Shown piece after piece: positions 34,360 through 62,832 of a DNA stretch of 64,000 bases. The notes under the pieces were generated by a model that was not told the origin of the DNA, made no database searches, and was given only the letters and a program-made list of their open reading frames with translations. Both the position numbers and the translations under genes were made by a program. The DNA is from Phenylobacterium sp. SCN 70-31 (GTDB lineage Bacteria > Pseudomonadota > Alphaproteobacteria > Caulobacterales > Caulobacteraceae), in assembly GCF_001724605.1 (NCBI RefSeq), contig NZ_MEEX01000019.1, positions 35,608-99,607 on the forward strand. Direction: 5' to 3'. Numbering within the stretch: position 1 is the first letter of the stretch; each line of letters starts with the position of its first letter.

Positions 34360-34444
34360 ACTTCTTGTCCTAGCCACGTCGCCGCCGGGGCCGTAAGTCG
34401 GGCGCTCACGCGCAGGTTTGGCGCGCGGGCTCGAAGGTCACGGA

Positions 34445-42245: not shown

Positions 42246-42403
42246 AGGATCACCCCGCTCACAGCAACACCGTCTTCATGCATCCGCCCCGTGGCGCGCG
42301 GGGTCGAAGGACTCGGGGCCGCGCGGGTTCACGTCGTCTTAGCGGCTCCGAGCGCGCGCCAGAAGCCCCTTGCCCGAAACGCCGCTACGGGGGATGGGAC
42401 GGC
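42246..42403. promoter_or_regulatory. Divergent gap between the CDP-sugar operon and the sulfotransferase
   Basis: The two outward-facing genes must both be driven from these 158 bases. Reading by eye gives no convincing promoter boxes; GGGGTGATC-type purine-rich sequence just before 42245 (minus strand) can serve rfbF as a ribosome binding site. No coding frame is evident apart from an arginine-rich extension of the sulfotransferase that I do not accept. Confidence 0.3.
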
Positions 42404-44409: not shown

Positions 44410-46230
44410 TTAGACGCCGACGATGTTCGACGCGCTGATGTCGGCCAGGGTGCGGCCCACCAGCACGACCGCGTCTTCCGCCGTGCCGTTGTTGGCGCCG
44501 GTGTCCGCGAAGACCACGACGTTCGTGCCGACCTGGATCACCACGTAGTCGATGACGCCGCCCGCGATCTGGGCGTCGGCAAGGAGCTTCGCCGCGTCGT
44601 AGGTGCTGGCCGACAGTTCGATGTAGTTCGAACCTTCGGTCGCAGCGCCCAGGCCGTTGAAGCGGAGGGTGTCCACCGTCTCCCAGTCGAGGATCTGATC
44701 CAGCGAACCAGCGGTGACGCCGGAGTCGCCCGAAGCGAACACGAAGCGGTCAGCGCCATTGCCACCGGACAGGAAGTCGGTGCCCGCACCGCCCACGATG
44801 GTGTCGTTGCCGTCACCACCTTGCACGGTGTCGTTGCCGGCTCCGCCGATCACGCTGTCGTTGCCGCCGCCAGCGTCGATCTGGTCGTTGTCGGCGCCGC
44901 CATCGAGGGTGTCGTTGCCTTCACCGCCCGAGACGACGTCGTTGCCGGCGCCAGCGATGACGCTGTCGTTGCCGGCGCCCGCGCTGATGGTGTCGTTGCC
45001 GGCGCCCGCGTCGGCGGTGTCGTTGCCATCGCCGAGGGTGACGGTGTCGTTGCCAGCGCCCGCGGTGACGTTGTCGTTGCCAGCGCCCGCATCGACCGTG
45101 TTCGCGCCGTCACCGGCCACGATGGTGTCGTTGCCGTCGCCGCCGTCGATGTTGTCGTTTCCGGCTCCGGCGGTGATGTCATCGTTGCCGATGCCGCCGC
45201 TGACGGTGTTGTTGCCCGCACCGGCGTCGATCGTGTCGTTGCCGTCTTCACCGAAGACGCGGTCGTTGCCGCCGCCCGTAGCGATGGAGTCATCGCCCAG
45301 GTTGCCGTTGAACACGCCGCCCGCCGTAGCCGCCGAGGCGTCGATCACATCGTTGCCCTGGCCGCCGAGGACGGTCAGGTTGGCGCTGGTGCTGGTGGCG
45401 GTGACGGTGTCATCGCCGGCGCCGCCCTGGACGAAGCCCGCACCGGTGAACGTGATGTCGTCCGCGCCCGCGCCGCCCTGGATGTTCACGACGCCAGCCG
45501 TGGCCGTGATCGTGTCGTTGCCGTCGCCGCCATCGACCGTGACCGAGTTGGTCGCGCCGCTGGTGGCGTTGATCGTGTCGTCGCCGGCTTCACCGAAGAT
45601 CTGGTCGTTGCCGCCGCTGCCGGTGAGCGAGTCGTTGCCGAGGTTGCCGTTGATGAAGTCGTCGCCGGCGCCGCCGTCGATCACGTCATCGCCTTGGCCA
45701 CCCAGCACGGTGTCGTTGCCCGCGCCACCATTGATGGTGTCGTTGCCGATGTTGCCCTGACCGAAGTCGTTGCCGTCGCCCAGGTCGAGTTCGTCGCTGC
45801 CCTGGCCGCCGTAAGCGGTGTCGTTGCCCGTGCCGCCGACGATGCTGTCATCGCCTTGGTTGCCCTGCAGCACGTCGGCGCCGCCGGCGCCGTTGAGCGT
45901 GTCAGCGCCCGCACCGCCGAACAGGGCGTCACCGCCCGCGCCGCCGGTGCCGGCGTCGTCGCCCGCGCCGCCGATGAACAGCGACGAGCTGTCGGGGAAC
46001 ACGACTTCACCGGCCGTGCCGGTCGCGATCGAGTTGCTGAACGTCACCGCGCGGCCCGTGAGGCCCGAGATGATCGTCACCGTCGCGGCGGAGGTCGCCG
46101 TCGCGGGATTGAAGATCACGGACGTGGTCACCGCACGCTCGCCGACGCCACCAAAGACGAGTACGTCGTTCGCGGCGTTGTAGGCGAGAGCCTGCGCTTC
46201 CGTGATCGTCTCAAAAAGATAAGTCGCCAT
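44410..46230 (-). CDS. RTX calcium-binding repeat protein, type I secretion substrate (possible S-layer or surface protein)
   Basis: Acidic protein of 606 residues with no cysteine that I can see. Residues 1-85 are a beta-rich N-terminal domain (MATYLFETITEAQALAYNAA). From about 86 to 500 runs a long array of RTX nonapeptides GGxGxDxUx (e.g. GGAGNDTVLGGQGDDVIDGG), which bind calcium after export. The last hundred residues form the uncleaved C-terminal secretion signal region, ending LADISASNIVGV. The ABC exporter and membrane fusion genes lie just to the right on the same strand, the arrangement of Caulobacter rsaA-rsaD-rsaE, though here the substrate gene is downstream. GGAGAG six bases before ATG 46230 and the strong terminator suggest high expression. 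Confidence 0.9.
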   Translation of the reverse strand: MATYLFETITEAQALAYNAANDVLVFGGVGERAVTTSVIFNPATATSAATVTIISGLTGRAVTFSNSIATGTAGEVVFPDSSSLFIGGAGDDAGTGGAGGDALFGGAGADTLNGAGGADVLQGNQGDDSIVGGTGNDTAYGGQGSDELDLGDGNDFGQGNIGNDTINGGAGNDTVLGGQGDDVIDGGAGDDFINGNLGNDSLTGSGGNDQIFGEAGDDTINATSGATNSVTVDGGDGNDTITATAGVVNIQGGAGADDITFTGAGFVQGGAGDDTVTATSTSANLTVLGGQGNDVIDASAATAGGVFNGNLGDDSIATGGGNDRVFGEDGNDTIDAGAGNNTVSGGIGNDDITAGAGNDNIDGGDGNDTIVAGDGANTVDAGAGNDNVTAGAGNDTVTLGDGNDTADAGAGNDTISAGAGNDSVIAGAGNDVVSGGEGNDTLDGGADNDQIDAGGGNDSVIGGAGNDTVQGGDGNDTIVGGAGTDFLSGGNGADRFVFASGDSGVTAGSLDQILDWETVDTLRFNGLGAATEGSNYIELSASTYDAAKLLADAQIAGGVIDYVVIQVGTNVVVFADTGANNGTAEDAVVLVGRTLADISASNIVGV

Positions 46231-46440: not shown

Positions 46441-47829
46441 CTACTGTTCGCGGAAGGCGTCTTCCAGGGTCTCGGTGATGGGCGAGATCAGGTAGCTCAT
46501 GACCGACCGCTCGCCCGTCACGATGAGCGCCTGAGCCGGCATGCCCGGCGTCAGTTCGACGCCCTTCTTCAGCTTGCGCAACTCGGTGGGGAGGATGCGC
46601 AGATCGACTTTGTAATATGCGGTCCCGTTCTTCTCGTCGGTGAACCGATCGGCCGAAACCACGGACACCTCGGCATCCAGCGAATCGCTGAAGCGCTGAT
46701 TGAGACCGGTCAGCTTCACCTTCGCCGGCATGCCGACACGGACCTCGTCCACGTCCTCCGGCTTGATGGTGGCGGTGACGGTCAGCGGCGTGCCGGTCGG
46801 CACCACATCCATCATGACCTCGCCGCCGCCGACCACGCCGCCCACGGTGAACTGGGTCAGGTTGAACACATAGCCGTCCACCGGAGCGCGGACGACCGTC
46901 GAGGCCAGGGTCTGGCGGGCGGTCGTGAGGCGGGGGATCACGTCGGAGAGCTTGGTCTGGCTGTCGCGCAGACCTTCGGCCGACTGCGTGGCGCGTTCGT
47001 TGCGCAACGAGGCGAGCTGGAGCCGGGTCTCCCCCATCTGCTGCCGTAGCCGGGCGATGTCGGCGTTGAGCTGGCCGCGGCGGCCGCCCAACTCGGCCAG
47101 GCTGCGCTCGTAGCGCAGGATGAGAGTCTTCGGCGCGAAGCCCTGCTCGTTGAGCTTGCGGTAGCCCGAGAGCTCCTCCTCGGTCAGGCGCTGCTGCTCG
47201 ACGATGGAGTCGAGTTGCGCCTGCGCGCCCTGGATCTGGGTCTCCTGCTGCTCGATGCGCTGCATGAGGACGGCCGACTGGCTCTGGAAGAGCTGCTGGC
47301 GGGTGGTGAAGAGGAACTGCTGGTCCCGGATGATGGTGGCGACCCCGGCCTCGCCCATGCGCGCCGTCAGTTCGGGCGGCAGTTCCAGCGAAGTCCTGCC
47401 CAGGGCTTCCGCCGTGTAGCGGGCGTTCTGGGCCAGGAGCGTGTCGTACTGGTTCTGCAGCACGTCGACCGCCGCACGGGCCTCGACGTCGTTGAAGAGC
47501 AGGAGCGGCTGACCGGCGCGGACCTGCTGTCCCTCCTTCACCAGGATCTGCTTCACGATCCCGGTTTCCTTATGGCGCAGCGTCTTGCGCTGCGAGTCGG
47601 CGCGAACCGCCGCCCCGGCGGTGATTCCCGACGCCAGGGAGTTGAACGACGCCCAAAGGCCAAGCCCCACCACGAACACGGCGATCACGCCCGCGCCCAC
47701 CAGCATCGGGCGGCGCAGGCGCTCCCGCAGCTCGGGCGCCATCGGCCCAGGGTCCTCGGCGCCGAAGGTGGGCGGGACGTAGGCCGACGGCGCCTGCGAC
47801 GGGCGGAACGGCTTCAGGTCGAGCTTCAC
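46441..47829 (-). CDS. Type I secretion membrane fusion protein (HlyD/PrtE/RsaE family)
   Basis: Periplasmic adaptor of 462 residues. One membrane anchor lies at about residues 43-65 (MLVGAGVIAVFVVGLGLWAS), the biotinyl-lipoyl-like half-motifs follow (KTLRHKETGIVKQILVKEGQ and VRAPVDGYVFNLTQF), with a long coiled-coil hairpin of about 150 residues between them and a C-terminal beta-barrel segment (GMPAQALIVTGERSVMSYLI), which is the usual HlyD ending. The start is GTG at 47829, overlapping the stop of the ABC gene (GTGA). The outer-membrane TolC-like partner is not in the window. Confidence 0.92.
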   Translation of the reverse strand: MKLDLKPFRPSQAPSAYVPPTFGAEDPGPMAPELRERLRRPMLVGAGVIAVFVVGLGLWASFNSLASGITAGAAVRADSQRKTLRHKETGIVKQILVKEGQQVRAGQPLLLFNDVEARAAVDVLQNQYDTLLAQNARYTAEALGRTSLELPPELTARMGEAGVATIIRDQQFLFTTRQQLFQSQSAVLMQRIEQQETQIQGAQAQLDSIVEQQRLTEEELSGYRKLNEQGFAPKTLILRYERSLAELGGRRGQLNADIARLRQQMGETRLQLASLRNERATQSAEGLRDSQTKLSDVIPRLTTARQTLASTVVRAPVDGYVFNLTQFTVGGVVGGGEVMMDVVPTGTPLTVTATIKPEDVDEVRVGMPAKVKLTGLNQRFSDSLDAEVSVVSADRFTDEKNGTAYYKVDLRILPTELRKLKKGVELTPGMPAQALIVTGERSVMSYLISPITETLEDAFREQ

Positions 47830-49574
47830 CGGCCACCCTCCACCGCGCGCACTTCCGCCGCAGGAGCCTGCGGCTGGGCGGGCTTCACGAGGCGCGCCAT
47901 CACCTGATCGCGCGGGCCGAACAATTCGACGCGGCCGTCGCGCAGCACCAGCATCTTGTCGGCGGCGCGAAACACGCCGGGCTTGTGCGAGATGATGACG
48001 ACGGTGGCGCCGTTGGCCTTCATCGCATCGATGGCGCGCATCAAGGCGTCCTCGCCCTCGGCGTCGAGGTTGGCGTTCGGCTCGTCCAGCACCACGAAGG
48101 CGGGATTGCCCAGCAGGCATCGGGCGAGGCCCACGCGCTGGCGCTGGCCGGCGGACAGCACCGTTCCCCCTTCGCCGACATCGGTGTCGTAACCCTTGGG
48201 CATGCGCAGGATGAGCTCGTGGACTCCGGCGAGCTGGGCGGCGGCGACCACCTCCTCATCGGTGACCCCTTCCCGGAAGCGCGCGATGTTGTTGCGCACG
48301 GTGCCGGCGAACAGTTCGGTGTCCTGCGGCAGATAGCCGACGTAGCGGCCGAAGTCGGCGCGATCCCAGGTGAAGACGTCGGCGCCGTCCAGGCGCACCA
48401 CGCCGTTCAGCGGCTTCCAGATTCCGACCAGCAGACGCGCGAGGGTGGACTTGCCGGCGCCCGAGGGGCCGATCACGCCCAGGACTTCACTGGGTTCGAT
48501 GGTGAAGTTGACGCCCGACAGGACGAGGCGCTGAACGCTGGGCGGGGCGAAGTTCACGCCCTCCACCGAAAGCTTGCCCAGCGGTCGCGGAAGGGCGGTG
48601 GCGGCGGCCGGCGCCTCGGCGGTCTCCAGCAACTGGTTGAGCCGAAGGTACGCCCGGTACATCGCGTTGAGCGGATCCCACGATCCCACGATCTTCTCGA
48701 TCGGCTGCAGCGCCCGGCTGACCAGGATCATGTTGGCGAACAGCATGCCGGGGTGGATCGAGCCCTTCAGGATCAGGAACGCGCCCAGCCCGATGGTCAG
48801 CACCTGCATGCCCATCCGCACCGCCTTGATGGCGTCGGTGTAGAAGTTCGACGCCTCGGAGGCGGCCGCGCCGCGCTCGATCGTCACCGCGCGGTGACGC
48901 GCCCAGGCCTGGCCCAGGGTGGGCAGCATCCCCATCGCCCGAACCACCTCGCCGTTGCGAAGCGCCGCGTCGGTGAAGGCGTAGCTGCGCAGCGCGGCGT
49001 CATTGGCCTCCTTGAGCGCCGACTGTGTGGCCCGCGCCTGCGCGATCGCCAGCATCACCAGGATCGCCGCGCCGATCAGGGTGACCACACCGATCAGCGG
49101 GTCGATGATGAAGAGAACGCCCAGGAAGACCGGGATCCACGGCACGTCGAAGAAGGCCGCAGCCGCGATGCCGGTGAGCGCCTGCCGGAACTGGTCCAGG
49201 TCGCGCAACGCCTGCGCGCGGGCGCCAGCGCCGCCGCGGACGGCCGCGTCGAACAGGCTGCTGAACACCCGCCCCGAAACCCGCTGGTCCAGGGCCACGC
49301 CGTAGTTGATCAGGATGCGCGCCCGGAAGTCGTCGATGACACTCGAGATGATGAAGACGAACAGCGTGATCAATGTCAGCGACCAGAGCGTCGCCTGACT
49401 CTGGCTGGTCAGGACCCGGCCGTAGACCTGATAAGTGTAGAGCGGAAGAGCCAGGTAGAGGACGTTCGACACCAGACTGAAGCCGAACGCGACCATGGCC
49501 GGGCGGCGGCCCTCGCGCAGGGCGCGGCCGAGCACGTTGTCGGGCAGGTCCGTGAGGAACGTCAGAAACTTCAT
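47826..49574 (-). CDS. Type I secretion ABC transporter (PrtD/RsaD family)
   Basis: Half-transporter of 582 residues energising one-step export of the RTX protein. Six membrane helices cover residues about 25-310 (MVAFGFSLVSNVLYLALPLY, IGVVTLIGAAILVMLAIAQA), without the N-terminal peptidase-like domain of HlyB, as in PrtD. The ATPase domain has Walker A GPSGAGKSTLARLL near residue 368, signature LSAGQRQRVGLAR near 473 (LSAGQ rather than LSGGQ, common in this group), Walker B FVVLDEPNANLD near 496 and the switch histidine in IISHKPGV. ATG 49574. First gene of the export pair; it is divergent from the DUF6270 gene across 186 bases. Confidence 0.93.
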   Translation of the reverse strand: MKFLTFLTDLPDNVLGRALREGRRPAMVAFGFSLVSNVLYLALPLYTYQVYGRVLTSQSQATLWSLTLITLFVFIISSVIDDFRARILINYGVALDQRVSGRVFSSLFDAAVRGGAGARAQALRDLDQFRQALTGIAAAAFFDVPWIPVFLGVLFIIDPLIGVVTLIGAAILVMLAIAQARATQSALKEANDAALRSYAFTDAALRNGEVVRAMGMLPTLGQAWARHRAVTIERGAAASEASNFYTDAIKAVRMGMQVLTIGLGAFLILKGSIHPGMLFANMILVSRALQPIEKIVGSWDPLNAMYRAYLRLNQLLETAEAPAAATALPRPLGKLSVEGVNFAPPSVQRLVLSGVNFTIEPSEVLGVIGPSGAGKSTLARLLVGIWKPLNGVVRLDGADVFTWDRADFGRYVGYLPQDTELFAGTVRNNIARFREGVTDEEVVAAAQLAGVHELILRMPKGYDTDVGEGGTVLSAGQRQRVGLARCLLGNPAFVVLDEPNANLDAEGEDALMRAIDAMKANGATVVIISHKPGVFRAADKMLVLRDGRVELFGPRDQVMARLVKPAQPQAPAAEVRAVEGGR

Positions 49575-49760: not shown

Positions 49761-50576
49761 ATGGAGCCGCGCATCGCCATTCTCGGGAGTTGCATCACCC
49801 GCGACCTCTGGCCCGTTCGGGGCGGCGGCGCCGAGCGGCTGCTCTACATTTCGCGGACCAGCCTCCCGAGTCTGTTCTCGCCGCCGGTGGCCGGTTTCGA
49901 ACCCGCCGCAAGCGCGCCCGAGGGCCTGACCGCCCATGAACATCGCGCCCTGGTCGCCGATCTGCGGAAGACGGCCCTGGCCAGTCTGGTCGCCTTCGAT
50001 CCCACGCACCTGATCTTCGACTTCATCGACGAGCGCTTCGACCTGGTGTCCGCGGGCGCGGCGCTGGCCAGTCGCAGCAGCGAGCTGCTCCGCAGCGGCT
50101 ATGGGGCGCAACCCGCCTTCGACGGCGCCCGTGTGATCCCCAGGTTGTCGGCCGTCGCCGAGCGCCTGTGGGCCGAGGGACTGGCCCAGTTCGCGGCCCT
50201 CGTCCGATCGACCCCCCTGGCTCATGCGCGGCCAGTTCTGCACCGCGCCCGGTGGGCGAGCCATCTCCGGCTGGCGGACGGAACGGACGAACCGATTCGC
50301 GACGTCCAGATCGTCTCTGGCCAGCCCACCGACATCGCCCCCTACAACGACCTGCTCGCGCGCCAGGACGCCGCGTTCCTGGCGGCGATGCCGGGGATCG
50401 AGGTGGTGGAGGCGGCGACGCCGCCGCTGGCCGACCCCGACCACCGCTGGGGCCTCAGCCCCTTCCACTACACCGCGGACTACTACGAGGTCCTTCGGAC
50501 CCGCCTGTGCTCGGTCCCGGGCCTGGAGGATGCGTTCACGCCCGTCCCTGCCGCGCCCAGTGCTCTAGGGGCGTGA
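49761..50576 (+). CDS. DUF6270-like protein, possible SGNH-type hydrolase or esterase
   Basis: Cytosolic protein of 271 residues without signal peptide. It opens MEPRIAILGSCITRDLW, where GSCxTRD near residues 9-15 resembles the block I serine/cysteine motif of SGNH-type hydrolases, and ends with LSPFHYTADYYEVLRTRL near 233-250, a histidine-bearing block conserved in the DUF6270 family as I remember it. LIFDFIDERFDL near 93 is another family-like segment. DUF6270 genes are frequent beside polysaccharide glycosyltransferases, which fits here. Catalytic function is unproven. ATG 49761 follows GGGACCGGG. The last 41 bases overlap the convergent repeat-protein gene. Confidence 0.65.
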   Translation: MEPRIAILGSCITRDLWPVRGGGAERLLYISRTSLPSLFSPPVAGFEPAASAPEGLTAHEHRALVADLRKTALASLVAFDPTHLIFDFIDERFDLVSAGAALASRSSELLRSGYGAQPAFDGARVIPRLSAVAERLWAEGLAQFAALVRSTPLAHARPVLHRARWASHLRLADGTDEPIRDVQIVSGQPTDIAPYNDLLARQDAAFLAAMPGIEVVEAATPPLADPDHRWGLSPFHYTADYYEVLRTRLCSVPGLEDAFTPVPAAPSALGA

Positions 50577-51771
50577 CGCCCGTCCGCGCCAATTCCGGCC
50601 GGCGCGCCAGATAGACGGCCGCGGACGAACCCGGCCCGAAGTCTCGCGCCTTCCAGGCGCCGCCCAACAGATAGTCGATCAGCAGATTGAGACCCGCAGG
50701 ACGATCTTCGCCCCGCGCCGTCGCGTAGGCTTCGGCGTCGAACCAGGGACCGGGCCGCCGGAAATGCTCAGGCGGCTCCAGGAGATAGTGGGTGAGCGGA
50801 TCCACGCCCGCAGCCTCCACGTCCGGATAGGTCTCCCGGTACCATCGTGCATCGAACAGCGGATGCGGCGAGACGCCGTCGCGCCAGCCTTGGTCGAGGT
50901 AGTGCAGCAACGGCGGCCCGGGTTCGGAACCGACCCGCGCGCCCACCTGGGCCGCGTACCAGGCCGGATCGAACAGCGGACCGGGCGAGAGCCCCCGTCT
51001 CCAGCCCTCGCGCAGATAGTGCGAAAGCGGATCGTCGTCGGGCGCCAGTTCCACGCCTTGGGCGAGATAGTGACCCACGTCGAACAACGGATGCGGCGAA
51101 GCCCCCTCGCGGGCACCCGCCCGGACGTAGTGCTCCAGCGGCGAGAGGCCGGTCGCCGCCAGCGCATGGGCGTGGCGCGACGCATACCAGGCGGGCTGGA
51201 AGAACGACGCCGGCGCACGGCCTTCGAACCCGCCCCTGACGAGATAGTGGACCAGCGGGGCGACCCGGGCTGCGGCCACGTCGGGATAGGCCGACAGATA
51301 GGCCGCCTGGCTGAACAGCGCCGCCGGCGCGACGTCGGACCGTGCGCCACGCCGGGCGTAGGCCGCCATGTGGCGCAGATCGTGGAGCGCCCGCCCCTCG
51401 CCACGCCAGACGCCGCTGCGCGCGATCACCAGGGCCTGTCCGAGCGACCCCAGGCGAGCCAGGAAGCGATCCAGCGCCTTGCTGGGCCGATTGTGCCGAC
51501 GGGACGGACGGACCCTCGCCAGGCGCCGCCAGGCTGAGAGCGCCTGGGCGCGGAGGCGGGCCTCGGCCTCGGCGCGGCCCGCAGCGGCCTCGAACAGCGC
51601 CAGACTCAGCTCCGTCCGCGTCAGAGCCTCGCGAAGCTGGGCGTCGTGCGCCACCCGGCGCAGGCCGGCGTGCTCGCGGGCCAGGGCCTGAACCCTCTCC
51701 AGCGTGCGCCCGCGCTCGGCGAGGATCGCGGCGGCGCCGTCCGGCTGGACGCCGGCCGCCGCCGGGGTCAC
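50536..51771 (-). CDS. Repeat protein: seven FDxxYY/PDV/PLxHY units after a helical N terminus, no catalytic domain
   Basis: Protein of 411 residues. Residues 1-145 are helical and rich in Ala/Arg/Leu (possible coiled coil at 15-85). From about 150 to the end come seven imperfect repeats of roughly 37 residues with consensus LFDxxWYxxxYPDVxxAGxxP-LxHYLxxGxxxGxSPxP; clear units are LFDPAWYAAQVGARVGSE and LFDARWYRETYPDVEAAGVD. The same unit forms the N-terminal parts of the two glycosyltransferases upstream in the operon. Function unknown; substrate binding or scaffold for glycan synthesis are possibilities. Start GTG 51771 overlaps the upstream stop (GTGA); ATG 51792 is the alternative. Confidence 0.75.
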   Translation of the reverse strand: MTPAAAGVQPDGAAAILAERGRTLERVQALAREHAGLRRVAHDAQLREALTRTELSLALFEAAAGRAEAEARLRAQALSAWRRLARVRPSRRHNRPSKALDRFLARLGSLGQALVIARSGVWRGEGRALHDLRHMAAYARRGARSDVAPAALFSQAAYLSAYPDVAAARVAPLVHYLVRGGFEGRAPASFFQPAWYASRHAHALAATGLSPLEHYVRAGAREGASPHPLFDVGHYLAQGVELAPDDDPLSHYLREGWRRGLSPGPLFDPAWYAAQVGARVGSEPGPPLLHYLDQGWRDGVSPHPLFDARWYRETYPDVEAAGVDPLTHYLLEPPEHFRRPGPWFDAEAYATARGEDRPAGLNLLIDYLLGGAWKARDFGPGSSAAVYLARRPELARTGVTPLEHWARQGRA

Positions 51772-52793
51772 GCCCCTTCGGTTTCGAGCCATTCTTGGAA
51801 GGTTCCGCGTCCGGAGGCGAAGGGGTTGGGGAAGGCCGACTGCAGGTCCGGCCGCTCCCGATAGAGCACACGATCCGACTTGGCGATGGGCCGGCCGTCG
51901 TCATAGGCGCCATAGGCCCACCAGCGTTCCGGGATGGCCGGGTCGGTCGCCGCGGCCACCTGACGCCGGTACCAGGCCCAGATCTCGTAGACGGGGTGAT
52001 TCGAGCCGGCGTAACGGCGGGTCATGGCGTCGCCGATCGCCCCCAGCTTGGTGAAATGCCAGAACCGCAGGGGATGGCCGTTGACCAGGATGCGCCCGTC
52101 CTTCTCCACCGAGACCGTCCGGGTGGAGAGGTTCCAGCTCGCCACGTTGTAGCCGGGATCGCGCACGACCTTCACCTTGTCGAACAGCGCCGGCACATGG
52201 TCGCACCACCGCTGGTCCACGAAGAGGCCGCTTGGCATGTCGTCGTAGCAGTACGACAGCAGCCGGTCGTTCCACCAGCGGGCGAAGCGCGCGCCCTCGC
52301 CCGTCGTCCGGATGGCTACGAAGCCCAGATTGAAGATGCCGGTCCGCGAGGCGGACAGGTCGTTGTCGAGGATCGCCGCATGATCGTCGTTGGGATCGAC
52401 CAGATGCGGGGTGAGCAGGATGTCGTGCTCTTCCAGCCAGGACTCCAGCGGCGCCAGCGTACCCAGCGCGGCGGTGTCGGGGTCCATGTAGATCACGGCG
52501 TCGAAGCCCCAGCCGCAGGCCTGGTGGATGAACGGCCCCTTCACCGCCGTGCAGACCTCGACCACGTCGTGGCGGAACAGCCATCCGGTGAAGTCCGGGA
52601 TGCCCAGGTCCTCGGCCCAGACGAGTCGGTCGAACGGTTCGGACGCCGGATCGAACACGAAGCCCTCGGGCGGCCGATCGGTGATCAACGCCGCCAGCTC
52701 CCAATCGGGATGGTGGCGCTTGAGGGTCTGGAACAGCACCCGCGCCCGGTTGAGGTACGAGAACGTGAAGCTGGAGTAGCAGAGGATCTTCAT
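51768..52793 (-). CDS. Glycosyltransferase-like protein, GT-A type with DxD
   Basis: Protein of 341 residues beginning MKILCYSSFTFSYLNRARVL, with DWELAALITDRPPEGF and, near residue 102, FDAVIYMDPDTAALGTLAPL. The DPD is the expected nucleotide-sugar/metal DxD of a GT-A (GT8-like) fold. NLGFVAIR and DQRWCDHVPAL later also resemble GT8 acceptor-side blocks. The C-terminal 70 residues are extra. ATG 52793 overlaps the stop of the glycosyltransferase upstream (ATGA), and its stop overlaps the repeat protein; all four genes from 56415 to 50536 are thus likely one transcript. Donor and acceptor unknown. Confidence 0.75.
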   Translation of the reverse strand: MKILCYSSFTFSYLNRARVLFQTLKRHHPDWELAALITDRPPEGFVFDPASEPFDRLVWAEDLGIPDFTGWLFRHDVVEVCTAVKGPFIHQACGWGFDAVIYMDPDTAALGTLAPLESWLEEHDILLTPHLVDPNDDHAAILDNDLSASRTGIFNLGFVAIRTTGEGARFARWWNDRLLSYCYDDMPSGLFVDQRWCDHVPALFDKVKVVRDPGYNVASWNLSTRTVSVEKDGRILVNGHPLRFWHFTKLGAIGDAMTRRYAGSNHPVYEIWAWYRRQVAAATDPAIPERWWAYGAYDDGRPIAKSDRVLYRERPDLQSAFPNPFASGRGTFQEWLETEGA

Positions 52794-54394
52794 GGGCGCG
52801 GCAGGTCCAGCGAAAGGGCGCTGAAGCGCAGGTCGTACAGCATGGGACGCCTTCGTGCGCGGGCCAGATCGAGGATCGCGCCCGACTCGAACGCGGCCCT
52901 CAGGGCGGCCTCGTCGGGCAGGCTCAGCCCGTGGCCGGTCTCGTCGACGAAGGCGCGGACGTTGCCGCTGTCGGGCCCCGTGACGACCGCGCAGCCCGCG
53001 GCCACCGCCTCGTACGCGACGAAGGAGAAGGTTTCGCGGCACAGGGGCCAGACCAGCACCGCATCGGCCTGCACGCGCGCAAGCGCGCCGGACATGTCGT
53101 GGGTCACGGCCTCGAACCCGCATTCGGCCCCTGGATCTCGGCGCGCGCCGAGATGGAGGAATTCGTAGCGGGCGTCGTCGGCGAACCGCGACGCCAGCTC
53201 GGCGAAGATCGGGAAGCCCTTGTGGGCCACCGGCAGGCCCGCGAAGGCCAGACGGAACGGCCTGCCGCCGTCCGCGGGCGCCGGGCCGCACGCCGTCAGG
53301 GTCGCATGGGGCAGCACGACGGCGCCGGCGTGGGGCAGGCGCGCGCGGGCCTCCCAGAGGTCCAAGGCGTTCCGGGACGGTGCGGCGACGGTGAGCCGCA
53401 GGCGTTCGAACAGGCGGGCATGGGCCGCCTCATGGCGAGCACGCCAGGGGCTGTATACGCACACCCCGCACCCCGGACTGTCGGGCGGCGGCGCAGCGCA
53501 ATCCTCGACGTCGTTGCGCAGGAGGTGGAAGCCGGCGCACAGGCTGGCGAAGTCGTGCAACCAGAAATGCCCCGCCGAAAGGCCTGCCGCCGCCAGGACG
53601 TCGGCCACCGTATCCGCATCGTGGCCCAGCAGGCTGTGGATGGCGAAGCTGCGCGATCCGCCGCTCTCCGCGCCGGACGTCGCCGCGACCGCCCGCGCCA
53701 GCGCCCCACACAGGTCGACAGCGTCGAAATAGCCGAGGAAGGCACCGTTCCAGACCACGCCCAGCGGCTCCTCGACACCTACGGGCCGCACCACCGGCCA
53801 GGGCCGCGCCGGGAAGACGTGCAGATGGTCGCGTCCGTCGGCCTCCAGCCGGACGGCTTCACGGCGAATGGCCGTCTGAAGTCCGCCGACCGTGGCGGTG
53901 AAATCGTCGTGGCTGAAGGTGACGTGCAGGCCCGCCAGGCGGCTGCGGGCTCGGGCCAAGGCGTCGTCGAGGTCGGCGGCGGTTCCCGAGGCGGGCGCGG
54001 CCGGCGGCAGTGCGTCCAGGCGTTCGTCCATCGACGCCAGCCGCGCGATCACGTCGTAGCGAAAGCCGTAGGGCGGCGGCGGGCGCCGCAACCTGGGCCG
54101 CCCCGTGGTGAGCCAGTGGACGAACGGGTTGACGCCCGACTCCGACACATCCGGGAACATCTCCAGATAGACCCGGGTCGAGAAGGCCGGGCTGGGGTCG
54201 CGGCCCTCGCGCCAGCCATGGGCCATGTAGTGATCGAGCGGATCGCCCCCGCCCGCCGCCACGTCGGCGTAGGTCGAAAGATAGAAAGCCCGGTCGAACG
54301 CCCGCGCGGCGATCGCGTGGTCGCCGTGCAGCGGCGTCCGACGGAGCCGGCGACGGATGTCCGGCGGCAGCATGGCCGCGACGAGCCGCCTCAT
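52790..54394 (-). CDS. Two-repeat glycosyltransferase paralogue B with Cys motif
   Basis: Protein of 534 residues. Residues about 30-105 carry two units of the FDxxFY...PDV..G.DPLxHY..GWREGRDPSP repeat (FDRAFYLSTYADVAAGGGDP and a second ending VNPFVHWLTTGR). The remainder is a GT-B-like glycosyltransferase: HVTFSHDDF near 152, HSLLGHDAD near 250, FWLHDFASLCAG, RNDVEDCAAPPPDSPGCGVC (C-x9-C-x2-C), LPVAHKGFPIF in a GT4-type Rossmann fold, and WPLCRETFSFVAYEAVAAGC with TGPDSGNV near the end, the usual donor-site E..E region. It shares nearly all these blocks with the adjacent longer protein, so they are tandem duplicates. ATG 54394 overlaps that gene's stop. Confidence 0.8.
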   Translation of the reverse strand: MRRLVAAMLPPDIRRRLRRTPLHGDHAIAARAFDRAFYLSTYADVAAGGGDPLDHYMAHGWREGRDPSPAFSTRVYLEMFPDVSESGVNPFVHWLTTGRPRLRRPPPPYGFRYDVIARLASMDERLDALPPAAPASGTAADLDDALARARSRLAGLHVTFSHDDFTATVGGLQTAIRREAVRLEADGRDHLHVFPARPWPVVRPVGVEEPLGVVWNGAFLGYFDAVDLCGALARAVAATSGAESGGSRSFAIHSLLGHDADTVADVLAAAGLSAGHFWLHDFASLCAGFHLLRNDVEDCAAPPPDSPGCGVCVYSPWRARHEAAHARLFERLRLTVAAPSRNALDLWEARARLPHAGAVVLPHATLTACGPAPADGGRPFRLAFAGLPVAHKGFPIFAELASRFADDARYEFLHLGARRDPGAECGFEAVTHDMSGALARVQADAVLVWPLCRETFSFVAYEAVAAGCAVVTGPDSGNVRAFVDETGHGLSLPDEAALRAAFESGAILDLARARRRPMLYDLRFSALSLDLPRP

Positions 54395-56415
54395 TTCGCG
54401 CCCTTCCCGACCAGATCCGCCGTCATGCCGCTGAAGGCCAGGTCGAACAGTTCGCCCCCCGTTCGGCCACCACGCGCCATGCGGATGATCTCGCCCGAGG
54501 CGAAGACCTCGGCGAGGGCCGTCTCGTCGGGGAGCACGACGCCCCGGCCGGACGCCGCGAAGGCCGCCACGTTGCCGCTGTCGGGACCGGTCAGGACGGC
54601 CGCGCCCCCGGCCGCCGCCTCGTAGGCCGTGAACGAGAAGGTCTCCCGGCACAGGGGCCAGATCAGCGCGATATCCACCTCCAGGTCCTCGACGGCGTCG
54701 CGCATCGCGAGCGGCTGTTCCACGCTCACCACGACCGGGTGGAAGTCCGCCGGCGCGGCCGGATCGGGGCGTCCGCCGAGGTGCACGAAATCGTAGCGGG
54801 GATCGTCGGCGAACCTCTGGGCCAGATCGCGGAACACGGGCCAGCCTTTCAACGCCGCCGGCATGCCCAGGAAAGCGGTTCGGAGCACGCCGGTCCGCGG
54901 CCCGCCGGCCCCGGTTCGAGGCGTCAGCTCGGCGTGCGGCAGCACCACGGCGCCCGTCGCAGGCAGGTCGGTGCGTGCGCGCCAGAAATCCAGCGTCACC
55001 CGCGAGGGTGCGACCACGGTAAGGGCCAGGCGCTCGAACAGGCGTCGGTGCGCCGTCTCGTGGCGGGCGCGGAAGGGGCCATAGTCGCAGACGCCGCAGG
55101 CCGGGCTGTCGGCCGGCGGCGCGCCGCAATCCTCGACGTCGTTGCGGACCAGATGGACGCCCGCGCACACGCTGGCGAAATCGTGCAGCCAGAAGAAGCC
55201 CGCCGACAGTCCCGCCGCCGCCAGGATATCGGCCGTGGCGTCGGCGTCGTGGCCCAGCAGGCTGTGCACCGCGAAGGTGCGCCGGCCCCCGGTCGTCGCC
55301 GCGTCCGCCAGCGCGCGGGCGACGGCCCGAGACGGATGGACACCCAGGCTGACGCCATCCAGCAGCACGCCCAACAGACCCGGCTCCTCCGGCGTCCGAA
55401 CCATCGGCCAGGGCGATGCCGGATAGAGGTGGAGGTGCGCCACGCCCGCCGCAGCGAATCCGGCGCTCTCGCGTCGCACGCAGGCCTGGAGCCCCCCCGA
55501 ATTCCGCACATAGTCATCGTGGCTGAAGGTCACGTGCAGGTCGCGCAACCGCCCCAATCCCTCGGCCAGCCGTTCCGGCGCGTCGGGACGCAGACGCGCC
55601 GCCGCGTCCCGCGCGTCGTCCAGGCGGCCAGCCGCCGGCCGGGCCCGCGACAGGATCTCGTAGCGGAATCCCAGGTCGATCTTCGCCGCACGTCCCTCGG
55701 CCCGGCCGGCCATGACGTAGTGGACGAAGGGATTGAGGCCGCTGGCGGCGACGTCGGGATGCGCCTCCAGATAGTCGCGCACCGAGAACCGCGGCGACGG
55801 ATCGCGTCCCTCCCGCCAGCCGGTCCGCAGGAAGTGGTCGAGAGGGTCCATCCCCGACGCCGCGATGTCGGGATTCACCGCCAGATAGTAGGCGGCGTCG
55901 AAGTCGGCGCCGACGACCGCCCGCTGGTCGGAGAGGTTGGGCGCACCCGCGCCGGCGACGCCCCCCCGTCGGCCCGGCCCGTCACCCTGCGCAACGTCTT
56001 GCCAGGCGGGCGGCGCCCAGCCGGAGGCCCCCAAATAGTCCCAGGCATGCGGCGACGCGGCGACCTCGCGCCCCTGAAAGCGGCCTTCCAGAAGATAGTG
56101 GGCGAAGGGACCACCCTCCGCCTCGGCCGCATCGGGATGATCGCGCCGATAGGCCTCGGTCGAAAACCAGGGCGCCGGATCGCGCCCCTCCGCCTCGCCG
56201 GCCATCCGGTAGTGCCACAGCGCGTCCATCCCGGCCGGCAGGTCGGTGTAGACCGCACGATAGAACCGCGCATCGAAGGCGACGGCCACGGCGCGATAGC
56301 CGATCTCGGTGCGAGGGCGGTCGTGGGCGAGGGCGACGAGGGGGGCCATCAAGGCCTTGAAGCTCCGGAAACGGTCGGGGACGGCCGGGGGCGCCGCGAG
56401 GCTGACATGCAACAT
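54391..56415 (-). CDS. Four-repeat glycosyltransferase paralogue A with Cys motif
   Basis: Protein of 674 residues, first gene of the four-gene operon. Four repeat units in two pairs occupy about residues 45-260 (FDARFYRAVYTDLPAGMDAL, FDAAYYLAVNPDIAASGMDP, HPDVAASGLNPFVHYVMAGR), separated by a glycine-rich linker. The catalytic half repeats the blocks of its neighbour: HVTFSHDDYVRNSGGLQ, HSLLGHDADATADILAAAGL, RNDVEDCGAPPADSPACGVC, FLGMPAALKGWPVF, WPLCRETFSFTAYEAAAGGA, TGPDSGNVAAF. The start is uncertain: ATG 56415 (MLHVSLAAPP) is chosen because it leaves 82 bases for divergent promoters, but no strong ribosome binding site is seen and later ATGs are possible. Confidence 0.78.
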   Translation of the reverse strand: MLHVSLAAPPAVPDRFRSFKALMAPLVALAHDRPRTEIGYRAVAVAFDARFYRAVYTDLPAGMDALWHYRMAGEAEGRDPAPWFSTEAYRRDHPDAAEAEGGPFAHYLLEGRFQGREVAASPHAWDYLGASGWAPPAWQDVAQGDGPGRRGGVAGAGAPNLSDQRAVVGADFDAAYYLAVNPDIAASGMDPLDHFLRTGWREGRDPSPRFSVRDYLEAHPDVAASGLNPFVHYVMAGRAEGRAAKIDLGFRYEILSRARPAAGRLDDARDAAARLRPDAPERLAEGLGRLRDLHVTFSHDDYVRNSGGLQACVRRESAGFAAAGVAHLHLYPASPWPMVRTPEEPGLLGVLLDGVSLGVHPSRAVARALADAATTGGRRTFAVHSLLGHDADATADILAAAGLSAGFFWLHDFASVCAGVHLVRNDVEDCGAPPADSPACGVCDYGPFRARHETAHRRLFERLALTVVAPSRVTLDFWRARTDLPATGAVVLPHAELTPRTGAGGPRTGVLRTAFLGMPAALKGWPVFRDLAQRFADDPRYDFVHLGGRPDPAAPADFHPVVVSVEQPLAMRDAVEDLEVDIALIWPLCRETFSFTAYEAAAGGAAVLTGPDSGNVAAFAASGRGVVLPDETALAEVFASGEIIRMARGGRTGGELFDLAFSGMTADLVGKGAK

Positions 56416-56497: not shown

Positions 56498-57571
56498 ATG
56501 AGCAAGACGGCCGCCCCTTCGAAGCCACGCACCGCCTATCTGGTGCTGGGCATGCACCGCTCGGGCACCTCGGCGGTGACGCAGCTCCTGGCGCTGGCCG
56601 GCGCGACCCTGCCCGCCAACGTGATGCCGGGGGACGAGCATAACGCCAAGGGGTACTTCGAGCCCTGGAAGATCGCGATCTTCAACGACGAGCGCCTGCG
56701 GGCGGGCGGCTCGGCCTGGGACGACCCGTTCGCATTTCCCTATGCGCCGCTGCCGGCCGACGACGAGGACGCCTGGGTCGAACGGGCCACCGCGTTGTTC
56801 GACGAGGAGTTCCCCAAGACGCCCTGGCCGCTGATGAAGGACCCCCGCGCCACCGTCCTGCTGCCCCTTTGGCGCCGGGTGCTGGATGCGCGCGGCGTGG
56901 CGGCCCGCTGCGTGATTCCCGTGCGTCACCCCCTGGCCGTCGCCGGCTCGCTGCGCCGGCGCGACGGGTTCGCGGCCGAGAAGTCGGTGCTGGTCTGGAG
57001 CGCCTACATGCTGGCGGCCGAGGCCTATACCCGCGACCTGCCCCGGGCCTTCGTCGGCTACGACGCCCTGCTCGCCGACTGGCGAGCCGAGACAGCCCGG
57101 ATCGAGGCGGCGCACGGCGCGCACCTGCCGCGTCTGACCGAGGCGGCGGGCAAGCGCATCGACAGGTTCCTGACTCCCGAACTCCGCCACAACGCGGGCG
57201 AGGACGGCCTCAAAGGCCTGGGTTGGGCCGGCGAGATCGCGGCGCAGGTTCTGGCCTGGTTCCAGGCGCGCGCGGCAGGCGAAACGCCTGGCCCCCAAGC
57301 CCTCGACGCCGCGGCGGCCCGCCTGGCCGAACGCCGCCGCGAGATCGGGCCCCTGGTCTCGCCGATGGCCCGCGACCTCGCCGCCGTCCGCATCGAGCTG
57401 GCCGACGCCCGCGCCCGCCTTCAGGTCGCCGAAGGGCTGGAGGCCGAACTGCGCGCGCTCACCCGCCGGCTGGAGGACGGCTGGCGCGCCGACCAGCGGA
57501 ACCTCGACACCGCCCTTCAGCTCCTCGATCGCATCGACGCCGAAGCGTCCGAGGCCCTGGCCCGCAAGTGA
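56498..57571 (+). CDS. Sulfotransferase-family protein with C-terminal coiled coil
   Basis: Protein of 357 residues. The P-loop-like 5'-phosphosulfate motif is YLVLGMHRSGTSAVTQLLAL near residues 14-33 and the 3'-phosphate region is CVIPVRHPLAVAGSLRRRDG near 141-160. GYFEPWKIAIFND near 53 is found in the sulfotransferase proteins of polysaccharide loci. Beyond residue 270 the chain turns highly charged and heptad-like (LAAVRIELADARARLQVAEG), predicting a coiled coil. It may modify the same glycan as the neighbouring transferases. Start ATG 56498, 82 bases from the divergent glycosyltransferase. The methyltransferase gene begins eight bases downstream. Confidence 0.78.
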   Translation: MSKTAAPSKPRTAYLVLGMHRSGTSAVTQLLALAGATLPANVMPGDEHNAKGYFEPWKIAIFNDERLRAGGSAWDDPFAFPYAPLPADDEDAWVERATALFDEEFPKTPWPLMKDPRATVLLPLWRRVLDARGVAARCVIPVRHPLAVAGSLRRRDGFAAEKSVLVWSAYMLAAEAYTRDLPRAFVGYDALLADWRAETARIEAAHGAHLPRLTEAAGKRIDRFLTPELRHNAGEDGLKGLGWAGEIAAQVLAWFQARAAGETPGPQALDAAAARLAERRREIGPLVSPMARDLAAVRIELADARARLQVAEGLEAELRALTRRLEDGWRADQRNLDTALQLLDRIDAEASEALARK

Positions 57572-57578
57572 GTCCCCC

Positions 57579-58340
57579 ATGACCCTCGACGCCGCGCTCG
57601 CGCGCTTCCCCAAGACCCGCCCGCCCCTGCCGCCGAGGCTCGCGGAGATCTATGCGCAGCAGTACGCCGAGAACCGGGCCGGCGGCAGCACCGCCGCCTC
57701 GCTCTCGCAGCGCCTGGAACGCTGGATGCACCGGCAGGTCGCCGCCGACGTCGCCGGGGGCGAGGCTCGCCCGACGCTCGAAGTCGGGGCCGGCAACCTG
57801 AATCAGCTCCCCTTCGAGCCCGCCGGCGCGCCCTACGACATCGTCGAGCCGTTCGCCGAACTCTACGCCGGCTCGCCACACCAGGCGCGGGTGCGCGACG
57901 CCTTCGCAGACATCGCCGACGTCCCCGCCGACCGTCGCTACGACCGGATCGTGAGCATCGCCGCCCTGGAGCACGTCTGCGACCTGCCCGTGCTGCTGGC
58001 GCGCTCGGCGCTTCTGCTGACGCCCTCGGGCGTATTCCGGGCGGCGATCCCCTCGGAAGGCGGGCTGCTGTGGCGGTTGGGCTGGTCCATGACCACCGGC
58101 CTGGAGTTCCGCCTGCGCTACGGCCTGAACTACGGCCAGCTCATGGCCCACGAGCACGTCAACGACGCAGCCGAGATCGAGCGGCTGGTCCGGGCGATGT
58201 TCGACGACGTGAACGTCCGCGCGTTCGGCCTGGGCCGCCAGCTCTCGCTCTACCGCTTCATCGAGGCCCGCCGCCCGCGGCCCGAGACCGCACGCGCCTG
58301 GCTGTCGCGCTTCGACCAGGGCGGCGCCATCGCAACGTAG
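57579..58340 (+). CDS. SAM-dependent methyltransferase
   Basis: Methyltransferase of 253 residues. SAM motif I is PTLEVGAGNLNQLPFEPAG near residue 65; motif IV-like IVSIAALEHVCDLPVLLARS near 124 and the AAIPSEGGLLW segment resemble the Methyltransf_11 group found in polysaccharide clusters. A helical N terminus (LAEIYAQQYAENRAGGS) precedes the fold. Follows the sulfotransferase by eight bases. Its last 91 bases overlap antisense the end of the membrane glycosyltransferase-like gene; both frames look genuine up to their stops. Acceptor unknown. Confidence 0.83.
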   Translation: MTLDAALARFPKTRPPLPPRLAEIYAQQYAENRAGGSTAASLSQRLERWMHRQVAADVAGGEARPTLEVGAGNLNQLPFEPAGAPYDIVEPFAELYAGSPHQARVRDAFADIADVPADRRYDRIVSIAALEHVCDLPVLLARSALLLTPSGVFRAAIPSEGGLLWRLGWSMTTGLEFRLRYGLNYGQLMAHEHVNDAAEIERLVRAMFDDVNVRAFGLGRQLSLYRFIEARRPRPETARAWLSRFDQGGAIAT

Positions 58341-61255: not shown

Positions 61256-62089
61256 ATGCAAACCGCCACCCACATGCTGCGGACGGGGCAGCGCGGCGCG
61301 CTGTTCCAGCTTCAGATGGCGCAGCGGGATCTGCGGAACTCGTTCGGGCGGATCGGGCTGGCCTGGTCGCTCGCCACGCACGACGTGAAGTCCCGCTATC
61401 GCGGATCGGTCCTCGGCCCGTTCTGGATCACGCTCTCGATGGGGCTGATGGTGCTGGGCATCGGCATCCTGTACGCGAGCCTCTTCAACATCCCGCTGGC
61501 GCAGTTCCTGCCCTATGTGGCGCTCGGCATCGTCTTCTTCGGGGTCATGACCGGCGTCATCAACGAAGGGTGCGAGGCCTTCGTGCTGGCGTCGGGGATC
61601 CTCTCCCAGACCAACCTGCCGATGCTGACCTTCGTCTGGCGCACGGTCTTTCGGAACCTGATCAACCTCGCCCACCACATGGTCATCGTCGTGGCGATGC
61701 TCACCCTCTACGGCTACTGGGGAAAGGCCGACATCCCTCTCGCCATTCTGGGCGTCCTGCTGATGCTGATGAACGTGAGCTGGGCGTCACTGCTCGCGGG
61801 GATCGCGTCGGCGCGCTACCGCGACGTCCCCCAGATCGTGGTCTCGATCATGCAGTTCGCGATCTTCATGACCCCGGTGTTCTGGCTGCCCGACCGCTTC
61901 GGCAAGCACCAGGTCTTCCTCGACTACAATCCGTTCTACCACCTCCTCCACGCCGTCCGCGGACCGATGCTGGGACAGCCGGTGTCGGGCCTGACCTACA
62001 CCGTGCTGATCGCGATGGCGCTGGTCGGCTGGACCCTGGCCTTCCTCATCTTCGCCCGCACGCGCCGGCGGCTGGTGCACTACCTATGA
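61256..62089 (+). CDS. wzm: O-antigen/polysaccharide ABC transporter permease Wzm
   Basis: ABC-2 type permease of 277 residues with six membrane helices. A cytosolic N-terminal amphipathic stretch contains the family block SRYRGSVLGPFWITLSMGLM near residues 45-64 (the RyrrsxLGpxW motif of Wzm/TagG/KpsM). Later VPQIVVSIMQFAIFMTPVFW near 199 and NPFYHLLHAVRGPMLGQP near 224 are also family hallmarks. It would export an undecaprenyl-diphosphate-linked glycan across the inner membrane with the ATPase encoded immediately downstream; their coding regions overlap (ATGA at 62086). ATG 61256 with GAGAGAGG upstream. Confidence 0.93.
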   Translation: MQTATHMLRTGQRGALFQLQMAQRDLRNSFGRIGLAWSLATHDVKSRYRGSVLGPFWITLSMGLMVLGIGILYASLFNIPLAQFLPYVALGIVFFGVMTGVINEGCEAFVLASGILSQTNLPMLTFVWRTVFRNLINLAHHMVIVVAMLTLYGYWGKADIPLAILGVLLMLMNVSWASLLAGIASARYRDVPQIVVSIMQFAIFMTPVFWLPDRFGKHQVFLDYNPFYHLLHAVRGPMLGQPVSGLTYTVLIAMALVGWTLAFLIFARTRRRLVHYL

Positions 62090-62832
62090 CCGGCGCCTCG
62101 ATCACCTGCACCGACCTGACGATCCGATTTCCCGTCTACGGGGCCGACGCCAAGTCCCTGAAGAAGGCCCTGGCGCGCGCGGTGAACGTGGGAGGCGTCC
62201 TGGGCCGCCATGCCGGCGTCACCGATGTCACGGCGCTCAGCAACGTCAACCTCAGGCTCGGGGCCGGGGACCGCCTGGGCCTCATCGGGCACAACGGGTC
62301 GGGCAAGACCACGCTGCTGCGCGCCCTGTCGGGGGCCTACGAGCCGGACGAAGGCACGATCGAGGTTCAGGGGCGGATCGCCTCGCTTCTCGACCTCGGC
62401 CTGGGGATAGATCCCTCGGCCACCGGCTATGACAACATCCGCCTGCGCGGTCGCATCGCGGGCCTGTCCTCGCGCGAGATCGACGAGCGTATGGACGAGA
62501 TCGCCGACTTCACGGGCCTGGGGCCGTTCCTGGCGATGCCGGTGAAGACCTATTCGGCCGGCATGCAGGGCCGCCTGGCCTTCGCCGCCGCGACGGCGGT
62601 CGAGTGCGACGTCCTGCTGATGGACGAGTGGATCGCCGTGGGCGACGCCGACTTCCAGAAAGTGGCGCACAAGCGCCTGCTGAAGCTGGTCGAACGCGCC
62701 GGCATCCTGGTGCTGGCCACGCACGAAGCGCCGCTGCTCAAGCTGTACTGCAACAAGGTGATGAAACTCGAGGGCGGCGTCGCCTCCGAGGTGGTGGACA
62801 TCCGCAGGCTGGACGAGCTTCTGAAGACCTAA
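62086..62832 (+). CDS. wzt: O-antigen/polysaccharide ABC transporter ATPase Wzt
   Basis: ATPase subunit of 248 residues. N-terminal ITCTDLTIRFPVYGADAKSL is the Wzt/TagH-type extension, Walker A is GHNGSGKTTLLRALSG near residue 67, the signature region YSAGMQGRLAFA near 155 (degenerate, with YSAGM as in Wzt), Walker B DVLLMDEWIAVGDADFQ near 178 and the switch histidine in LATHEAPLL. It is short and lacks the C-terminal carbohydrate-binding domain of E. coli O9a Wzt, so chain-terminator recognition would not be needed. Stop overlaps by four bases with the convergent glycosyltransferase. Confidence 0.93.
   Translation: MTGASITCTDLTIRFPVYGADAKSLKKALARAVNVGGVLGRHAGVTDVTALSNVNLRLGAGDRLGLIGHNGSGKTTLLRALSGAYEPDEGTIEVQGRIASLLDLGLGIDPSATGYDNIRLRGRIAGLSSREIDERMDEIADFTGLGPFLAMPVKTYSAGMQGRLAFAAATAVECDVLLMDEWIAVGDADFQKVAHKRLLKLVERAGILVLATHEAPLLKLYCNKVMKLEGGVASEVVDIRRLDELLKT

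Follow-up and report, generated by a model that had tools for sequence, protein, structure and literature searches.

The P1-P4 locus

A 64,000-nucleotide stretch of the Phenylobacterium sp. SCN 70-31 genome (contig NZ_MEEX01000019.1, positions 35,608 to 99,607; hereafter the window) holds four overlapping minus-strand genes, P4, P3, P2, and P1, which span 50536-56415 and three of which encode copies of a short repeat unit. A preliminary description of this DNA, made from the sequence alone, had reported the four overlapping genes, and the overlaps come to 4, 4, and 25 nucleotides along the order P4-P3-P2-P1. P4 (54391-56415, 674 amino acids) carries two N-terminal unit pairs and the same glycosyltransferase (GT) domain as P3 (52790-54394, 534 amino acids), which carries one N-terminal unit pair and a GT-B (GT4-like) domain. 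The two were rightly described as paralogous glycosyltransferases, being 54% identical over 519 columns. P3 scores 23.9 bits against Pfam Glyco_trans_1_4, under the cut-off of 27, and P4 matched no Pfam family of its own. Second P3-type copies have more than one origin within Phenylobacterium in our tree, in which the window P3 falls within a supported clade of nine (100/99) and the pair of locus L030 forms its own sister group (100/99).

P2 (51768-52793, minus strand, 341 amino acids) bears no units and is a putative GT-A/GT8-like glycosyltransferase. Its earlier assignment as a GT-A protein agrees with a DPD motif; P2 matched no Pfam family, and profile A6 returned only sub-threshold glycogenin matches (best E 0.24). 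P1 (50536-51792, minus strand) is 418 residues long from the first ATG rather than the 411 first given; a coil-like segment at residues 31-86 is followed by seven 37-residue units, and no catalytic domain was found in it.

The conserved unit of organization reaches beyond 50536-56415 to a divergent gene on the plus strand (56498-57571, 357 amino acids), which encodes a putative sulfotransferase with a C-terminal coil-like tail. The longer open reading frame (ORF) at 56309-57571 matches Sulfotransfer_3 at 18.9 bits (E 0.0019), under the cut-off of 27, and the trimmed frame has no match at 1e-3. The tail occupies residues 291-358 of the 358-residue translation by a lenient coil rule, and the same rule, applied without a control and to rows that include overlapping contigs, finds such a tail in 50 of 52 homologues. 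P1, P2, P4, and the putative sulfotransferase co-occur in all 40 Phenylobacterium-type loci tested; P1- and P2-like matches were the criterion for choosing these loci, and two of them (L027 and L066) are one place. Each of the 40 has a four-unit ORF, while their P1-like ORFs carry five to seven units. A variable-length ruler built of the units themselves was set aside on the constancy of P4, despite the variation among P1-like ORFs.

The repeat unit as half of a domain

The copy numbers that were first reported, four, two, and seven, are those returned by a converged 37-position hidden Markov model (HMM), among whose seeds the window copies stand: four units in P4, two in P3, seven in P1, and none in P2. 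Domain scores run from 25 to 69 bits and are lowest in units 6 and 7 of P1. A plain protein search of its own genome with P1, made with no HMM, retrieved P3 and P4 (E 3e-13, 6e-11, and 6e-6) as its sole matches at E 0.01, so the likeness among the units is not due to chance. By both searches, the units in this genome are confined to the P1-P4 locus.

From the loci fetched first, the converged profile collected 958 copies spread over 213 ORFs, and 1208 copies were aligned once later loci had been added. The distance from one unit start to the next is most often 38 residues (367 of 749 steps), and exact pairs make up 67 of the 116 unit runs in 74 unit ORFs of 59 survey loci. The first member of a pair has the consensus FD..fYl..yPDv..ag.DPl.Hyl..GWrEGRDP and the second FSt..YLe.nPDV..aG.NPf.HYL..Gr.EGR.P. 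Because the two members differ consistently, the unit is best seen as half of a domain of ~75 residues. Aromatic residues are abundant throughout, and F1, Y6, H23, G28, E31, G32, and R33 are kept at 79-100% in each of three sets compared, namely, the first units of pairs, the second units of pairs, and a set from secreted-type proteins that is described below.

The preliminary description gave no assigned function for the unit, and neither Pfam, NCBIfam, nor the Protein Data Bank (PDB) sequences supplied a characterized domain that matches it. No repeat region matched a Pfam or NCBIfam family at its curated cut-off, and the best NCBIfam match of the unit consensus had an E value of 0.22. A four-fold unit consensus matched NTP_transf_5 (PF14907) over its positions 188-219 (32 positions) at E 4.4e-5 and 23.6 bits, against a cut-off of 31.2, a match that we read as a by-product of repetition and that may be accidental or point to a related helical segment. 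The unit consensus had no match among the PDB sequences, where the best matches of profiles A3 (a 38-row alignment of P1 orthologs) and A4 were sticholysin (E 0.32) and phycocyanin (E 0.61), while single-sequence searches gave a beta-glucosidase for P1 (E 0.02) and a best E of 0.39 for P4; we treated the three named matches as chance. TPR, Sel1, and SLH repeats are likewise short tandem units and helical by appearance; they differ in that neither the window proteins nor the unit consensus matches them in Pfam, and scans of the proteins and the consensus against Pfam and NCBIfam lend no support to TPR, Sel1, SLH, DUF4214, or RMF as the identity of the unit. A literature search that included motif strings found no description of it, and the domain appears to be undescribed within the databases and literature searched.

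Carriers and distribution of the unit

Among 59 of the 74 survey unit ORFs that were scanned against Pfam, 25 match GT2 (Glycos_transf_2), 21 match Glyco_trans_1_4, and 7 match RgpF, with rarer partners in WbsX (4), WsaF (3), and RTX (2) and single members that include a sulfotransferase and proteases, among others.

The first view of the unit as a feature of alphaproteobacterial glycosyltransferases was too narrow, since it is carried as well by Escherichia coli capsule-type loci and by Bacteroides and cyanobacterial plasmid records. Even sampling across the phylum Pseudomonadota found the unit in 66 of 397 genomes, the window genome among them; the figure is a minimum, since no more than 14 candidates were scored in each genome. 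Within the family, 46 of 119 genomes match (again with the window genome), and within the genus 14 other listed genomes match and at least two do not. Named relatives of the P1-P4 locus are mostly Phenylobacterium. The unit also occurs in 128 of 72,556 plasmid records. DNA like the E. coli unit locus was found on the chromosomes of 50 of 5426 E. coli genomes, in 37 over at least 80% of the query, and a plasmid-type version was found in 17 of the 5426 (15 plasmid and 3 chromosome places).

Coils ahead of many unit blocks

We sorted 99 unit ORFs by the place of their unit block into 18 C-terminal, 15 internal, 58 N-terminal, and 8 short ones, leaving out L025-L044, the named Phenylobacterium-type loci, and 23 loci of the secreted set, and called coils by a heptad rule of our own making. 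The 18 proteins with C-terminal blocks are presumed cytoplasmic and come from outside Phenylobacterium; in 14 of them the block is preceded by a coil of 35 residues or more (Fisher p 3e-5), and in 11 by a coil of 100 residues or more (p 1e-9). Control ORFs from the same loci, some of which may not be genes, have a coil anywhere along their length at 148 of 517 and 27 of 517 for the same two thresholds. These p values assume independent rows, an assumption that L045 and L046 break, and two of the 18 (L111 and L135) have triplets, a layout that may place them in the secreted set. Coils of 35 residues or more also precede 12 of the 15 internal blocks. They precede 3 of the 58 N-terminal blocks, which is no fair contrast, as little sequence precedes them by definition.

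Nine of the 15 internal-block proteins were examined individually (L047, L048, L049, L094, L103, L106, L146, L177, and L180), and all nine have the same order along a single chain: a sulfo- or methyltransferase, a coil, the units, and a GT. They are not a blind sample, for L047, L048, and L049 were scanned before the coil scan and the other six were picked afterwards. Some of the calls are weak: the sulfotransferase of L180 and the GT of L049 lie just below their cut-offs, the coil of L048 has only 35 residues, and the sulfotransferase of L103 is called from its homology to the window protein together with a weak Pfam match, that of L106 from such homology alone. Among the remaining six internal-block proteins, the rule finds a coil in L122, L176, and L181 and none in L077, L087, and L123.

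The same parts also occur as facing neighbors, a C-terminal block standing directly before an N-terminal one, in 5 of the 18 C-terminal cases: L045 and L046 (both E. coli), L114, L136, and L187. The split E. coli form comprises a methyltransferase with a coil at 288-809 of its frame and a C-terminal unit pair, followed by a GT2 protein with an N-terminal unit, in a locus that also holds genes annotated for a KpsE-family protein, polysaccharide export, and an ABC (ATP-binding cassette) transporter. L114 encodes a sulfotransferase-like protein (40% identical, in the corresponding part, to the window protein) that continues into a coil and three units, and P4- and P2-like genes follow. L103 fuses a homolog of the window sulfotransferase (34%), units, and a P3-like GT (37%) with a P2 homolog next to it, and L106 is a single-chain fusion with other GTs. 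Since these homologs fuse or adjoin the same parts, the window appears to hold the fused machine in split form, its parts being the sulfotransferase with its coil, P1 with its coil and units, and P3/P4 with their units and GT domains.

A candidate coupling joint in a polysaccharide machine

The observed units, architecture order, synteny, and fusions lead us to propose, at a little under even odds (roughly 0.48), that the unit block serves as the joint that couples the parts of a WbdD-like, ABC-exported polysaccharide machine. P1-P4 and the putative sulfotransferase would work together in the cytoplasm as a single machine making a sulfated surface polysaccharide, in which P3, P4, and P2 would polymerize the chain and the sulfotransferase would modify or cap it at a distance set by the coiled coil, as the WbdD ruler does. 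The unit block would couple the glycosyltransferases to the end of the coil, at the end of the ruler that lies nearest the membrane. Such a scheme would have the block bind a protein, the coils pair with one another, the divergent enzyme act as a sulfotransferase, and sulfation end the chain. In the window, the parts would be spread over separate chains (sulfotransferase-coil, coil-seven-unit P1, and unit-bearing P3 and P4), and in other lineages they would be carried in one chain (L103, or L106 with other GTs) or by facing neighbors (L114).

We infer the coupling role because the unit block stands where, in the available text of PMC3482155 and PMC11231755, the C-terminal region of WbdD recruits the WbdA polymerase. 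As far as the same two sources go, the WbdD/WbdA-type rulers of E. coli O9a and Klebsiella O3, O4, O7, and O12 combine a modifying enzyme, a coiled coil, and a C-terminal polymerase-side region, belong to ABC-transporter loci, and have their parts fused in some serotypes and split in others. The window resembles them in its exporter, a Wzm-like ABC-2 polysaccharide export permease (61256-62089, plus strand; ABC2_membrane) and a Wzt-like ABC ATPase (62086-62832, plus strand, 248 amino acids; ABC_tran the only family above its cut-off), the pair that would export the polysaccharide. Of 13 Phenylobacterium-type loci with 20-kb stretches, Wzm is present in 10 and Wzt in 9. The window differs from the described WbdD systems in having a repeat block at the position of the recruitment site, a modifier that looks like a sulfotransferase, a coil divided over two short proteins, and a Wzt in which we found no carbohydrate-binding module of the kind that reads the cap, the 248 residues leaving no C-terminal room for one. 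Given this Wzt, we do not file the locus as a WbdD system, although its working mode is probably similar; the kind of machine is known, and the joint is new.

The E. coli kps-type (group 3-like) capsule loci extend the comparison. Their units lie in a methyltransferase gene and in a GT2 gene after a kpsE-like gene, and the methyltransferase has the long coil; they are unlike the window in their sugars and in having no link to type I secretion. The accessible portion of PMC10433991 describes a SAM (S-adenosylmethionine)-dependent methyltransferase as the first central-region gene and plasmid-borne group 3B clusters, and its description of the capsules, within that portion, mentions neither a coil nor a protein repeat. 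We read the E. coli unit loci as group 3 from their gene order and not from typing.

Only in a few O antigens, from Klebsiella and E. coli, is it known how a polymerase, a terminator, and a ruler find one another. If our proposal is true, a recurrent and recognizable block at the joint of ruler and polymerase would make such complexes predictable from sequence across many bacteria, including those of E. coli capsule loci.

An alternative is that the block anchors the base of the ruler to the membrane or to a lipid carrier and keeps the enzymes near an undecaprenyl-linked chain with no specific protein partner. The aromatic richness of the units would suit it, as would the membrane-associated amphipathic helix that WbdD has in the same region, according to the part of PMC11231755 available, and it would account for genomes with a single unit carrier. 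The triplets of secreted carriers would require a different target, and we hold this anchor to be improbable.

A number of our own observations weigh against the coupling joint. Four of the 18 C-terminal blocks (L111, L139, L153, and L167:1-1701) have no coil ahead of them, and for 8 of the 18 the stretch that was fetched contains no further unit ORF. The coils of the window are short, at ~55-70 residues by the heptad rule, and the lenient form of that rule also flags stretches of 28-32 residues in P2 and P3. A Wzm-like gene is present in the fetched stretch of only 11 of the 59 survey loci, and the window Wzt, having no module to read a cap, does not provide the WbdD-type coupling of termination to export. 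Finally, a coil-unit protein is the only unit protein found in three of eight genomes (G280, G485, and G198), and units also end secreted-type proteins, one of which is the sole carrier in three of another eight genomes; the partner of a unit block is thus not always another unit protein. The shared binding or assembly role first suggested for the unit is partly supported and fits the comparative data, in which units lie between coils and glycosyltransferases in fused proteins and on both sides of the joint in some split ones; the docking of unit to unit as a general rule fails on these sole-carrier genomes.

Eight short ORFs of fewer than 250 residues carry two units each (L132, L137, L142, L118, L109, L148:6556-7044, L149:7498-7998, and L126:6889-7332); they are possibly free-standing joints like P1, or fragments.

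Secreted carriers and glycan binding

The secreted set consists of proteins with C-terminal unit triplets on RTX, protease, phosphodiesterase, or immunoglobulin (Ig)-domain proteins and was picked partly by Pfam and otherwise by the triplet layout. Among its carriers are one M10-like and one trypsin-like protease, a GDPD phosphodiesterase, and RTX/Ig proteins. When ten candidates were scanned, L151 proved to be a GT and was left out; eight of the other nine have extracellular-enzyme, Ig, or RTX families (one of them, Lipase_3, below its cut-off), and L124 has none. A polysaccharide gene cluster on a plasmid of Azospirillum sp. B510, which contains pseB and a flippase, also encodes a calcium-binding protein that carries units (L202, 7014-9497).

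In a serious rival reading, the unit pair is a carbohydrate-binding module that grips the growing chain in glycosyltransferases and ties secreted enzymes to the finished polysaccharide. Such a module accounts better than a coupling joint for the secreted set, with its proteases, phosphodiesterase, and RTX/Ig proteins, and it would explain why the seven conserved residues are kept alike in the pair and secreted sets, why the Azospirillum carrier sits within a polysaccharide gene cluster, and why some genomes have one unit protein. It does not predict a block at the joint of coil and GT or coils before C-terminal blocks, it sits uneasily with a copy number in P4 that is four in every one of the 40 loci, and no known binding module in Pfam or the PDB sequences resembles the unit above cut-off. 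Of the two roles offered at first, the architecture favors docking over glycan holding, and we regard glycan binding as unlikely.

A broader form of the coupling joint would bring both groups of carriers together. The unit pair would be a transferable coupling domain that joins ruler coils and polymerizing glycosyltransferases on separate chains, triplets of it would have been reused to hold secreted enzymes at the surface, and P1 would be a scaffold of little more than coil and joint; we consider this possible and, on balance, doubtful. The presence of the same block on secreted enzymes suggests an unexplored route for placing enzymes at the cell surface.

Type I secretion genes and other neighbors

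Beside P1 lies a set of minus-strand type I secretion system (T1SS) genes: an RTX calcium-binding protein (44410-46230) with 15 HemolysinCabind stretches and no units, which is a probable type I secretion substrate, a HlyD-like adaptor (46441-47736; HlyD_3), and an ABC transporter (47826-49574; ABC_tran and ABC_membrane). A T1SS match of at least 469 bits is present in 38 of the 40 Phenylobacterium-type loci, and in one reading the P1-P4 operon would glycosylate the neighboring secreted RTX protein in the cytoplasm instead of making an exported polymer. Outside these loci, L192 combines P4- and P2-like genes with a 147-bit T1SS-like match and three RTX motifs, RTX and T1SS genes adjoin the Bauldia P4-P2 pair (L126), and RTX motifs lie by the pair of L090. 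Four of the six named pairs from outside Phenylobacterium (L083, L091, L103, and L114) show neither a T1SS match nor an RTX motif within the stretch fetched, only 5 of the 59 survey loci have T1SS matches against 11 with Wzm, and Wzm and Wzt are both present in the window itself. We consider this glycosylation route very doubtful.

The S-layer locus of Caulobacter, a relative, likewise has a type I secretion RTX protein beside polysaccharide export genes. There, as given in the available part of PMC6978808, the layer is anchored through the lipopolysaccharide O antigen. The window RTX protein matched 36 PDB sequences at E ≤0.01, all generic RTX and none named RsaA, in a set in which the presence of RsaA entries was not confirmed. 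An ARAGORN call of a tRNA-Thr (47626-47710, minus strand) within the HlyD-like gene region is probably spurious.

Downstream of the putative sulfotransferase, a SAM-dependent methyltransferase (57579-58340, plus strand) matches Methyltransf_23 at 29.5 bits, above the cut-off of 27, and is a possible second modifier. A Phenylobacterium sub-group has, beside the putative sulfotransferase, an extra ORF of ~1065 amino acids with six or seven units that is absent from the window; it occurs in L025, L026, L027, L028, L058, L060, L066, L069, L075, and L096, among others, and in L025 and L027 it is a GT2-WbsX fusion. An ORF at 62080-63846 on the minus strand runs antisense to the Wzt-like gene. Convergent with P1 is a plus-strand gene for a DUF6270 protein (49761-50576), present in 12 of 13 genus loci. 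Farther away on the same strand lie a second, unrelated-looking sulfotransferase (42278-43150; Sulfotransfer_1 above its cut-off) and a protein with TPR and GT41 regions (34418-36730), which we take to resemble the FlmG-type flagellin glycosyltransferase.

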